From Phreatobacter sp. (GTDB lineage Bacteria > Pseudomonadota > Alphaproteobacteria > Rhizobiales > Phreatobacteraceae), in assembly GCF_027532945.1 (NCBI RefSeq), contig NZ_JAPZTZ010000022.1, positions 62,001 to 126,000 of the forward strand: DNA of 64,000 nucleotides. Direction: 5' to 3'. The translations under genes were made by a program, and so were the position numbers. The notes beneath the pieces are model-generated. The model worked only from the letters and a program-made list of their open reading frames with translations. It was not told the origin of the DNA and did no database searches. Shown here one piece after another: positions 14,576 through 18,003 of this stretch; positions within the stretch are counted from its first letter, which is position 1; each line of letters starts with the position of its first letter.

Positions 14576-15325
14576 ATGCGTCGTGTTCTGTTCGGTCTGG
14601 CTGCTGCCTGCTGCGTTGCAGGGACTGCGTCCGCAGCCGATCTCGGCTCTCCGCGCGGTCCGGTGATGGCGGTCGCCGTCGCGCCAGCCGGGTTCAACTG
14701 GACCGGCTTCTACATTGGCGGCCACCTGGGCATCGCCTCGGTCGCCGGTGGTTACGACGCCTTCACACCCCGCAACGGCTTCGCAGGCTTCCCGCTTCAG
14801 GGGATGGGCGGTTCGGCGCTGATGGGCGGTATGCAGATCGGCTACAACTACCAGATCAACAGCATGGTCCTCGGCCTTGAGGCCGATCTGTCGGCTGTCG
14901 GATTCAACAAGAGCTCGACCACGGCGCTGGCGCCGGCCGCGGGTGTGGTGCCCGTGTTCGCGCGCAGCCTCAACTGGACCGCAACGCTGGCGCCGCGCAT
15001 CGGCGTCACCTTCGACCGGGCCATGCTCTACGCCAAGGCTGGTCTCGCCCTCGGCGGGTTCACGACCGGTCACGATCAGGGGCCCTACCTGTCCTCCTCC
15101 AGCACCCGTGTGGGCTGGATGGTTGGCGCCGGCCTCGAATATGCGGTGACGCAGAACCTGACCGCCAAGATCGAGTACAACTACCTCGCCTTCGGTCGCT
15201 TCCGCACCGATCTGGCGGGTGCGCCGAACATCTGGGTCCAGCAGCGTGGTGACGTCCATGCCGTCAAGGTTGGCGTGAACTACCTGTTCTCGTCGGGTCC
15301 GGCTGGCGTCGTCGCCCGCTACTGA
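14576..15325 (+). CDS. outer-membrane beta-barrel protein, Omp25/Omp31 family
   Basis: The 249-residue protein has a signal peptide cleaved after ASA in CVAGTASAADLGS. The mature protein starts near the family hallmark NWTGFYIGGHLG, continues in amphipathic strands (MQIGYNYQINSMVLGLEADL, AKIEYNYLAFG) and ends in VKVGVNYLFSSG...VARY with terminal aromatic residues, as in Omp25/31 porin-like proteins. It is an abundant structural surface protein in Rhizobiales. A very strong TAAGGAGG ribosome-binding site precedes it and a terminator follows, as expected for a highly expressed single gene. Confidence 0.93.
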   Translation: MRRVLFGLAAACCVAGTASAADLGSPRGPVMAVAVAPAGFNWTGFYIGGHLGIASVAGGYDAFTPRNGFAGFPLQGMGGSALMGGMQIGYNYQINSMVLGLEADLSAVGFNKSSTTALAPAAGVVPVFARSLNWTATLAPRIGVTFDRAMLYAKAGLALGGFTTGHDQGPYLSSSSTRVGWMVGAGLEYAVTQNLTAKIEYNYLAFGRFRTDLAGAPNIWVQQRGDVHAVKVGVNYLFSSGPAGVVARY

Positions 15326-15349
15326 ACGAAGGCTATCCGACAAGATGAA

Positions 15350-15376
15350 GGGCCGCCTCGTCGAGGTGGCCCTTTT
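15350..15376 (+). terminator. terminator of the porin gene
   Basis: A 10-bp stem with one G-U pair (GGGCCGCCTC / GAGGTGGCCC) closes a short loop and is followed by TTTT. It begins 24 bases after the porin stop codon. Confidence 0.85.
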
Positions 15377-15397
15377 CCGTTGTCCGCCCGTTGGCTG

Positions 15398-15688
15398 TCA
15401 GGCCGCCCGGAGGGCGTCTAGAACCCGCGTCGCCACGCCCGACTCGATTGAGTGGATGATCCGGCGCCCGGAGCGCCGCGATGCAATGATCCCGGCGTGG
15501 CGAAGGATGCCGAGATGATGGCTGACGGTCGCAGGCCGGAATCCGGTGCGCCTTGCAATCACGGTCGACGAATCCTCGCCATCGCGAAGACAGCAAAGGA
15601 CCATCAGCCTCTGGGAATGCGCCATGGCCTTGAGAACATTTTCGATCTCGTCGGCAAGCGTTCGCTGGGCGTCGCAAGGCATATCCAT
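15398..15688 (-). CDS. ArsR-family winged-helix repressor
   Basis: The 96-residue regulator starts at MDMPCDAQRTLADEIENVLKAM; the recognition helix lies in TGFRPATVSHHLGILRHAGII, then the wing RRSGRRIIHSI. ArsR proteins are dimeric repressors that sense metals, redox state or small ligands. Cysteines occur in MPCD and in VLCCLRDGED; the CC pair in the alpha-3 region could sense a metal or sulfur species (inference). I preferred the ATG at 15688 because a longer start at 15781 adds a poorly ArsR-like extension. No obvious target gene is adjacent. Confidence 0.82.
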   Translation of the reverse strand: MDMPCDAQRTLADEIENVLKAMAHSQRLMVLCCLRDGEDSSTVIARRTGFRPATVSHHLGILRHAGIIASRRSGRRIIHSIESGVATRVLDALRAA

Positions 15689-15814
15689 GCCGAAACCTTT
15701 TGGCTTTTTCTTCCTCCAAGGCAAGTAATTTACGTGAGGGCTCCAAGGAATGCATTGCGCTGTCTCAAGACAGGCTGCCACGGCCTGGGCCGGATTCTCG
15801 ATGTGTCGGTCGTG

Positions 15815-16090
15815 TCAGCGCTGGCAGATGGTCAGCGTCGAGACGGCCTCGCCGGTGGGGCGGAACTTCAGCACCTGCGATCCACCGAGGACCTGGCCGT
15901 TCGGCACCCAGTCGCCCGAGACCGTCATGGCCGGCGGCGCGGCGGTGCACAGGCAGGGGCCGCAATAGGTGACGGGGCGGGTGCCCGGCGACTGCGCGGG
16001 GGACTGGGCCGGGGCGGCGCCGGCGCTGGCGGCGAAGCCGGCAGCGAGAACGAGGGCGGCGAAGGCGGTGCGGGCGATGCGGATCGACAT
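15815..16090 (-). CDS. small secreted YCxxCLC protein, copy A
   Basis: The 91-residue protein has a signal peptide (MSIRIARTAFAALVLAAGFAASAGAAPAQ) and a mature core with YCGPCLC, then MTVSGDWVPNGQ and a last cysteine in LTIC. The gene just upstream on the same strand (16192-16461) encodes the same pattern, YCTGCLC then MPVPGEWRPSGR and a last cysteine. The four conserved cysteines suggest a disulfide-stabilised or metal-binding domain. I do not recognise the family. A GGAGAC ribosome-binding site precedes the ATG at 16090. Confidence 0.75.
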   Translation of the reverse strand: MSIRIARTAFAALVLAAGFAASAGAAPAQSPAQSPGTRPVTYCGPCLCTAAPPAMTVSGDWVPNGQVLGGSQVLKFRPTGEAVSTLTICQR

Positions 16091-16133
16091 GGTCTGTCTC
16101 CGGTCGGCGGCGCTGTTGGGCCGCGGGACGATG

Positions 16134-16176
16134 AACTTGACCATGGGTGGCGGCGTGCCTCGAAAAGGTTCAAACC
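16134..16176 (-). promoter_or_regulatory. upstream element of copy A, repeated at 16611-16652
   Basis: Read on the minus strand it contains GTTTGAACCTTT, a 20-base gap after GAACC, then CCATGGTCAAGTT. The same two blocks with exactly the same gap occur at 16611-16652, upstream of copy B. The TTGAAC...GTTCAA ends are inverted repeats. It is a candidate shared promoter or operator. Confidence 0.5.
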
Positions 16177-16191
16177 GCCGCGGATTTTTCG

Positions 16192-16461
16192 TCAGCCAGC
16201 CGTATTGGGGCGCCGGCAGGAGGAGGCGGTGCGGCCCGGCTCGCGCGGCTCGAAGCGCAGGGTGATGCGGTCGCCCATGCGGCCACTCGGGCGCCACTCG
16301 CCGGGAACCGGCATGTCGGGGCGTTCCTCGTCGCAGAGGCAACCGGTGCAATAGAGGACCGACTGGGGCGCCATCGCACGCGGCGCATCGCCGGCGAGGC
16401 CTGCCAGGCCCGCGACGGCGGTGATGGCGGCGGCGATGGAGGACAGCGGCATGAGGGGCAT
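16192..16461 (-). CDS. small secreted YCxxCLC protein, copy B
   Basis: The 89-residue paralogue of the downstream gene has a hydrophobic N terminus (MPLSSIAAAITAVAGLAGLAG) that acts as signal peptide, then YCTGCLC, MPVPGEWRPSGR, TLRFEPRE and a final SSCRR. Spacing of the conserved residues matches copy A, so this is a tandem duplication followed by divergence. A GGAGG ribosome-binding site lies upstream. A perfect CtrA box is 50 bases upstream of the start. Function unknown. Confidence 0.75.
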   Translation of the reverse strand: MPLMPLSSIAAAITAVAGLAGLAGDAPRAMAPQSVLYCTGCLCDEERPDMPVPGEWRPSGRMGDRITLRFEPREPGRTASSCRRPNTAG

Positions 16462-16510
16462 CGGAGCGATCCTCCGGCGGAACGGCTGACTTGAGAACAG
16501 CCCGCCGAGG

Positions 16511-16526
16511 TTAAGGTTCCCTTAAC
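16511..16526 (+). promoter_or_regulatory. CtrA-type box (TTAA-N7-TTAAC)
   Basis: TTAA at 16511-16514 and TTAAC at 16522-16526 are separated by seven bases. It also reads as an inverted repeat, GTTAAGG and CCTTAAC around TTC. It lies 50 bases upstream of the copy B gene on the minus strand. Confidence 0.6.
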
Positions 16527-16610
16527 GGCCTGGCCGTCTGCGGTTGGACATCCCGGCGAGAGGCGCCGTGTCGCCTGGGATCGTCACGAAGAGTGGCCCT
16601 GAAGCCGCTC

Positions 16611-16652
16611 ACTTGAACATGGGTCGGATCGGCATTCCGAAAGGTTCAAACG
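16611..16652 (-). promoter_or_regulatory. upstream element of copy B, repeated at 16134-16176
   Basis: Minus-strand blocks GTTTGAACCTTT and CCATGTTCAAGT match the element upstream of copy A with identical spacing. It starts next to the terminator of the aminotransferase gene and about 150 bases before the copy B start codon, further away than in copy A. Confidence 0.45.
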
Positions 16653-16679
16653 AAAAAGCGCGCCGGTGAGGGCGCGCTT
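16653..16679 (-). terminator. terminator of the aspartate aminotransferase gene
   Basis: A perfect stem AAGCGCGCC / GGCGCGCTT surrounds a six-base loop, followed on the minus strand by TTTTT. It lies about 30 bases beyond the stop codon. Confidence 0.9.
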
Positions 16680-16710
16680 CCCGATGGGGACCGGTGATGA
16701 CCTGAAAGGC

Positions 16711-18003
<1,293 letters not shown>

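Follow-up and report, generated by a model that had tools for sequence, protein, structure and literature searches.

The DNA that we analysed, the window, is a stretch of 64,000 nucleotides from a Phreatobacter genome (G000 below), and the locus described here lies on its minus strand (Table 1). Two adjacent open reading frames for 91 and 89 residues are present there, just as the earlier note had reported. Read along the minus strand, the order is an aspartate aminotransferase gene, promoter element 2, a conserved stretch of 73 nt, gene 2, promoter element 1 and gene 1. The end of element 1 is 44 nt from gene 1 and the end of element 2 is 149 nt from gene 2. The aspartate aminotransferase gene stands upstream of the family locus in 9 of the 12 loci of the genus. 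The ArsR/SmtB-type gene is found next to gene 1 in G000 and G007 only (54% identical), and because only two of the 12 genus loci have it in that place, it is probably not part of the two-gene unit. The TTAA-N7-TTAACC motif before gene 2 resembles a CtrA box and is, as read from the alignment, complete in two and near-complete in five of ten genomes. A GGAAC-N16-TGTT reading overlies the same site, and it is possible that a second promoter for gene 2 is located here.

Table 1. Features of the two-gene locus and its neighbours, with positions in the window
Feature	Position	Strand	Description
ArsR/SmtB-type metalloregulator gene	15398-15688	-	NCBIfam HTH_metalloreg over cut-off; directly after gene 1
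Gene 1	15815-16090	-	91 aa, putative exported protein, YCGPCLC...C, family member 1; basis: open reading frame, alignment, dN < dS, AlphaFold2 model
Promoter element 1 (promoter-like motif)	16135-16172	-	-35 TGAACC 16167-16172, N16, -10 region CCACCC 16145-16150, then ATGGTCAAGT
Gene 2	16192-16461	-	89 aa, paralogue, YCTGCLC...C, family member 2
TTAA-N7-TTAACC	16509-16525	-	between the 73-nt stretch and gene 2; read from alignment
73-nt conserved stretch	16543-16615	-	compatible with two RNA hairpins; the gene 2 transcript presumably begins here
Promoter element 2 (promoter-like motif)	16611-16648	-	-35 TGAACC 16643-16648, N16, -10 region CGACCC 16621-16626, then ATGTTCAAGT
Aspartate aminotransferase gene	16711-17913	-	upstream context only

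The features by which the pair had been recognised, a shared YC-x2-CLC, a G-x-W-x-P-x-G segment and a last cysteine, are conserved in the 22 sequences that we aligned. The positions Y42, C43, C46, L47, C48, P53, M55, G59, W61, G65, P78 and C89 (numbering of gene 1) are invariant in these proteins, and the P63 column is at least 90% conserved. Third codon positions are the least conserved in the family genes and dN was smaller than dS in all 16 comparisons, the narrowest being gene 2 against G007 (0.72 vs 0.85), which means that the family proteins are under purifying selection. All 12 Phreatobacter genomes have the family, ten of them with both genes and two, G003 and G009, with one copy. In a maximum-likelihood tree, gene 1 (support 100/99) and gene 2 (84/82) form separate groups and the single copies fall with gene 2, so that a single duplication inside the genus would suffice to account for the pair. 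The earlier note called both proteins secreted; their hydrophobic N-termini agree with this and both are probably exported, but the signal peptide of gene 2 is less clear, since no basic residue precedes the hydrophobic stretch in nine of ten species (one of the nine has a histidine). The AlphaFold2 models had a mean pLDDT of 64 and 67, with block means of about 74–88 in the core only, and in this better-scored core they show YC in a strand that is followed by a beta hairpin. A fold search with the models of both proteins matched no known fold, and no sequence-related solved structure was found, the single sequence match in PDB having an E of 0.74. Neither gene 1 nor gene 2 matches a Pfam or NCBIfam family over the curated cut-off; the Pfam run covered all 22 members.

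Outside the genus, the YCxxCLC profile gave weak matches in 8 further genomes of 101 and in 14 of the 385 non-genus genomes of an order-wide sample (397 with the genus, at most 13 candidates scored per genome). The motif YC..CLC was absent in all six frames at all of the 22 weakly matching loci (8 + 14) that were read, three weak matches without a locus being left out. Six of the 14 order-wide matches look like heavy-metal ATPase domains, have no YC..CLC motif and were rejected. The profile search of further contigs gave seven loci, apparently those of seven Phreatobacter genomes already counted, and no homologue of the family was found in the viral contigs. The open-licence PMC literature that we searched held no paper on such a regulon and none with 'YCxxCLC'. 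Within the genomes searched, the proteins form an orphan family that is so far restricted to Phreatobacter. The earlier note had proposed the profile search and regarded a lack of homologues beyond close relatives as speaking against its idea. Within the genomes searched such a lack is what we see for the proteins, but not for the promoter and the sigma factor.

Upstream of both genes the blocks GTTTGAACC and CCATG-N-TCAAGT are 20 bases apart, as had been noticed before, and with a spacer of 15–25 the 4.13-Mb genome has two exact copies of this pattern, both of them at this locus. The unit that is conserved genus-wide is TGAACC-N16-CGACCCATG. TCAAGT, earlier taken as a part of the element, is present in this family but in only 2 of the 45 other sites, so it does not belong to the genus-wide unit; these two sites are at one G000 gene and one G007 gene, the product of the latter matching Pfam YcxB. 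When one mismatch was allowed, the unit was found at 98 places in the 12 Phreatobacter genomes, 19 of them in G007, and the reversed pattern at none. A variant, TGAACCTT-N14-CGAC-N2-ATG, occurs at 110 places in the same genomes, as compared to 2 for its reversed form, and at one place in 12 genomes of the order that have no sigma match at E<=1e-25. An alignment of 20 family sites and 45 others, picked with at most one mismatch, shows an invariant GAACC and 85–100% conservation per column in CGACCCAT. A site is present before each of the 22 family genes, and its -10 region is unlike CGACCC in six of them (CCACCC in G000 and G006, AGACCC in G008, CCACTC in G003, CTACCC in G009 and CGACCT in G001). 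The gene 1 site of G007 reads CGAACC, and the second site of G006 has no ATG. Judged by these letters the element looks like an ECF promoter. An RpoH promoter was also considered and rejected, the spacing being about 6 too long for the RpoH consensus.

That copies of the element might be found near an ECF sigma factor was suggested in the earlier note, and G000 does have one ECF sigma gene for which this is the case. The motif stands right before 1 of 11 Sigma70_r4_2 matches in G000, at C34:105774-106331, outside the window. Counterparts of this gene are present in all 12 Phreatobacter genomes with 89–100% identity, the G010 copy being cut at the contig end, and the search of 101 genomes found relatives in a further 18, which belong to 16 genera. 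The G007 copy is over the NCBIfam cut-off for PRK12515.1. In 28 of the 29 sigma homologues with upstream DNA, [T/C]GAACC-N16-CG[A/T]C lies 54–78 nt before the aligned start, where the search pattern was GAAC-N17/18-CG with a rough chance estimate of about 1 in 8 sequences. This holds for all 12 genes inside Phreatobacter and for 16 of the 17 outside, L187 being without the motif; L188 was dropped from the count because its upstream DNA is missing, and second matches in G045 and G048 had no locus. The gene after the sigma gene probably codes for the anti-sigma factor (its zf-HC2 and anti-sigma models are below cut-off), and an S8 protease gene comes next. This protease (L145 9053-11251 and L139 5121-7208) has a long glycine-rich N-terminal region, which is different in G007 and G000. 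A sigma homologue on a Methylocapsa plasmid, 57% identical, has a hypothetical gene right after it and an S8 peptidase gene near by. The promoter motif of the sigma gene stands before gene 1 and gene 2, element 1 with CCACCC where element 2 has CGACCC, and it is strongly indicated that both genes belong to the targets of this PRK12515-type ECF sigma factor.

Among the 98 sites of the genus, 65 distinct ones were scored, a sample in which orthologues are counted repeatedly and some loci were hand-picked. An open reading frame was assigned to 58 of the 65, with a hydrophobic N-terminus in 50 of these, and to seven sites none was assigned. Without the 20 family sites, the N-terminus is hydrophobic in 33 of 45 (33 of the 38 with a reading frame), and 27 of these proteins have exactly two cysteines after residue 20. 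As background, a hydrophobic N-terminus is present in 14 of the window's 63 genes and in 8 of its 32 small genes, a count made without the preference for hydrophobic N-termini and the free choice of start that the rule for the sites had. Many targets have an end like CYTARRWVDTPYGPALRRVRVC, or else are rich in glycine and carry a cysteine pair late in the sequence, and some are in tandem (G007, G009). The targets at L140, L146, L150, L151, L154 and L155 are small, with a hydrophobic N-terminus and a CYTARRWVDTPYGPALRRVRVC-like end, and some of them are tandem; two proteins of this set were tested and had no Pfam match. An end of this type resembles a cationic beta hairpin closed by a disulfide. 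Other kinds of target are a YcxB-like protein, two very small membrane proteins and a long frame reading like a response regulator.

A stricter pattern was applied to six genomes of other genera; five of them contain sites, 19 in total, and the reversed pattern has none. Three of the 19 are the sigma genes' own sites, and eight have no open reading frame by our rules, L221 at least looking accidental. The targets in these genera include an exported protein with a VWA-like start, a two-cysteine protein and an exported DsbA-like protein that has ScsC_N and DSBA domains. The last of these (L228 in G078) hints at thiol or copper stress. It seems that the sigma factor controls many other small exported cysteine proteins. 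The idea of a secreted four-cysteine family with a promoter type of its own has thus stood in part: the family and the promoter-like motif are real, but the motif also precedes other small exported proteins.

A new observation, beyond the earlier note, is the conservation of 73 nt between element 2 and gene 2. This stretch is free of insertions and deletions in all ten genomes that have the gene pair, and its mean pairwise identity of 90% exceeds that of gene 2 (68%) and of the remaining 5' UTR (46%); between G000 and G007 the values are 0.89 for the stretch and 0.50 for gene 2. It appears to begin at the expected start of an ECF transcript, about 9–10 nt after CGAC, a distance taken from promoters in the part of PMC6180224 available to us. 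The variable columns are spread evenly over the codon positions in every frame, so the stretch does not look coding. In a model with two hairpins, all 160 pair cells of the ten genomes hold standard pairs, as compared to 42–56% when the partners are slid, although the hairpins were derived from minimum-energy folds of the same sequences and are therefore favoured over these controls. Five pairs vary, each on one side and still pairing, while the number of two-sided changes is zero; 5 of the 40 paired columns and 12 of the 33 unpaired ones are variable. The shuffle control for pairing was uninformative (500/500), the minimum-energy fold of G007 is unlike the two-hairpin model, and the 98-nt stretch of the window folds no better than shuffles (z -0.5). 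No common fold was obtained for the whole 5' UTR of gene 2.

A search with an RNA model of the stretch gave one match of 94–104 bits in each of the ten pair-bearing genomes. The best match in the 287 other genomes, the two single-copy Phreatobacter among them, had 28 bits (G217; by eye in coding sequence), and 50 of the 297 genomes have some match at E<=0.1, the ten strong ones included. With Rfam 15 the interval 15300-16720 yielded five matches, their E values reaching 5, and none of them falls on the 73-nt stretch or exceeds the gathering score. Within its 11-nt loop, the second hairpin has a self-complementary GGCGCC, which is GGTACC in G005 and G011, as if loop-loop pairing between two copies mattered. 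Two possible functions were rejected. For a sequestration of the gene 2 ribosome site there is no consistent fold, and a leader peptide from the ATG of the element would have a frame that is open in some species and meets a stop after two codons in others.

Taken as a whole, we find it quite probable that the pair are paralogous, Phreatobacter-specific members of one ECF sigma/anti-sigma regulon, with a 73-nt RNA on the gene 2 message. The sigma factor would recognise TGAACC-N16-CGAC[CC] before each of the two genes, before its own gene and before those of other small exported proteins, many of these with one C-terminal cysteine pair. A signal in the envelope, by analogy oxidative, thiol or metal stress, would free the sigma factor from the anti-sigma factor. 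The gene pair would then be made and exported to the periplasm, and the proteins oxidised or metal-loaded via CxxCxC and the last cysteine. The gene 2 message would begin with the two-hairpin RNA of 73 nt, which probably regulates the message or becomes a small RNA. In the simplest reading this would be an envelope-stress regulon, to which the four-cysteine pair is a genus-specific addition.

It is conceivable that the element is not a promoter but the operator of a repressor, an imperfect inverted repeat TTGAAC...GTTCAA, as these two arms are indeed complementary in copy 2. The second arm varies (GGTCAA, CCCAAG, GCAAG, GCTCAA) while CGACCCATG is largely kept, and it is the motif minus the second arm that precedes the ECF sigma gene in 28 of 29 homologues, which makes the operator very improbable. 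The 73-nt block could in the same way be conserved as regulatory DNA or as a short coding sequence instead of a structured RNA. The absence of two-sided covariation, the ordinary folding energy of the window's stretch and the frame that is open from the ATG in some species would all agree with this, but against it are the stop two codons after that ATG in other species and the even spread of variable columns over the codon positions. It also speaks against this explanation that the five variable columns among the 40 paired ones all keep standard pairs while 12 of 33 vary in the unpaired part, and we hold the DNA or coding explanation to be unlikely. As a structured RNA, the stretch may represent a new class of sigma-dependent regulatory RNA, a two-hairpin first-transcribed part of the gene 2 message that serves as a leader switch or is processed to a small RNA tuning the sigma factor's exported-protein regulon. 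RpoE-dependent small RNAs tune the regulon of the same sigma factor in enterobacteria. For the Phreatobacter stretch we put this forward tentatively, with doubt somewhat outweighing belief.

The biochemical role of the proteins would lie in envelope thiol, oxidative or metal stress. Bufferins are small exported cysteine proteins under ECF control, of DUF2282-type sequence and with maturation partners encoded adjacent to them. The Phreatobacter proteins resemble bufferins in being small, cysteine-bearing, predicted to be exported and apparently ECF-controlled, and they could likewise be periplasmic buffers of copper or zinc, in which CxxCxC, the last cysteine and the invariant methionine hold the metal and the sigma factor senses metal stress. 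The four invariant cysteines with the invariant methionine would fit such a buffer, and so would the site before the ScsC_N and DSBA protein outside Phreatobacter (one genome), although it is only by its Pfam name that this protein is linked to copper. On the other hand, the proteins have no DUF2282-type or other Pfam match over cut-off, the likewise invariant Y, P, G and W are not ligands, 27 of the 33 other targets with a hydrophobic N-terminus have two cysteines only, and no metal transporter is among the targets read. A metal buffer is for these reasons rather unlikely. Alternatively, the proteins may be small, beta-rich envelope components whose cysteines pair into two structural disulfides, with a regulon that serves envelope or oxidative stress and involves no metal. 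This would agree with the dominance of two-cysteine and four-cysteine proteins with hydrophobic N-termini at the sites, with the modelled strand at YC and the hairpin after it, and with the DsbA-like target in one genome of another genus. The confidence of the AlphaFold2 models is moderate, however, and we regard this proposal as about evenly poised between right and wrong. We lean towards structural disulfides over a metal or redox role, because one cysteine pair is all that most of the other targets with hydrophobic N-termini contain.

The general stress promoter of EcfG is GGAAC-N16/17-CGTT, and the Phreatobacter motif has a similar layout but a different -35 (TGAACC) and -10 (CGAC). No TGAACC-N16-CGAC site was found before L099, a gene read as EcfG beside a PhyR-like gene. 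The ECF26 sigma factors of Sinorhizobium meliloti (RpoE1, RpoE3, RpoE4 and RpoE6) are alike, in the available parts of PMC6180224 and PMC3511301, in having the sigma gene followed by the anti-sigma gene, in the serine protease gene beside rpoE6, as compared to the S8 protease near the Phreatobacter sigma factor, and in small regulons with hypothetical exported proteins. Autoregulation is also reported there for RpoE1, RpoE4 and RpoE6. In contrast, most promoters mapped in the same part of PMC6180224 read GAATA...CGT[CT] and not TGAACC...CGAC, and an S. meliloti plasmid match, among the matches listed, is 32% identical to the Phreatobacter sigma factor. Sulfite activates RpoE1 and RpoE4 and, by preliminary data, not rpoE3 and rpoE6, as far as the available text of PMC3511301 goes, whereas nothing at the Phreatobacter locus points to sulfite. 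Given these differences in the mapped promoters, and with a sulfite response reported for RpoE1 and RpoE4 alone, we have not filed the Phreatobacter sigma factor as ECF26. The EcfF-OsrA system of Bradyrhizobium japonicum is similar in being an autoregulated pair of ECF sigma and anti-sigma factor with few target genes, but EcfF is in the SigF class, and redox sensing via the cysteines of OsrA was shown in B. japonicum, according to the portions of PMC3420878 available to us.

By themselves the proteins would be an ordinary orphan family, and it is the regulon together with the conserved 73 nt that makes the locus worth an experiment. To our knowledge, tiny exported cysteine-pair proteins are widespread in alphaproteobacteria and have found no explanation. 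The sigma factor, which has relatives in 16 other genera among the 101 genomes covered, gains a promoter consensus and a readable regulon rich in such proteins, and the locus offers a conserved candidate RNA and two genes as a compact test case, in which the signal of the sigma factor and the role of the cysteine proteins become testable, for instance in strain NMCR1094.
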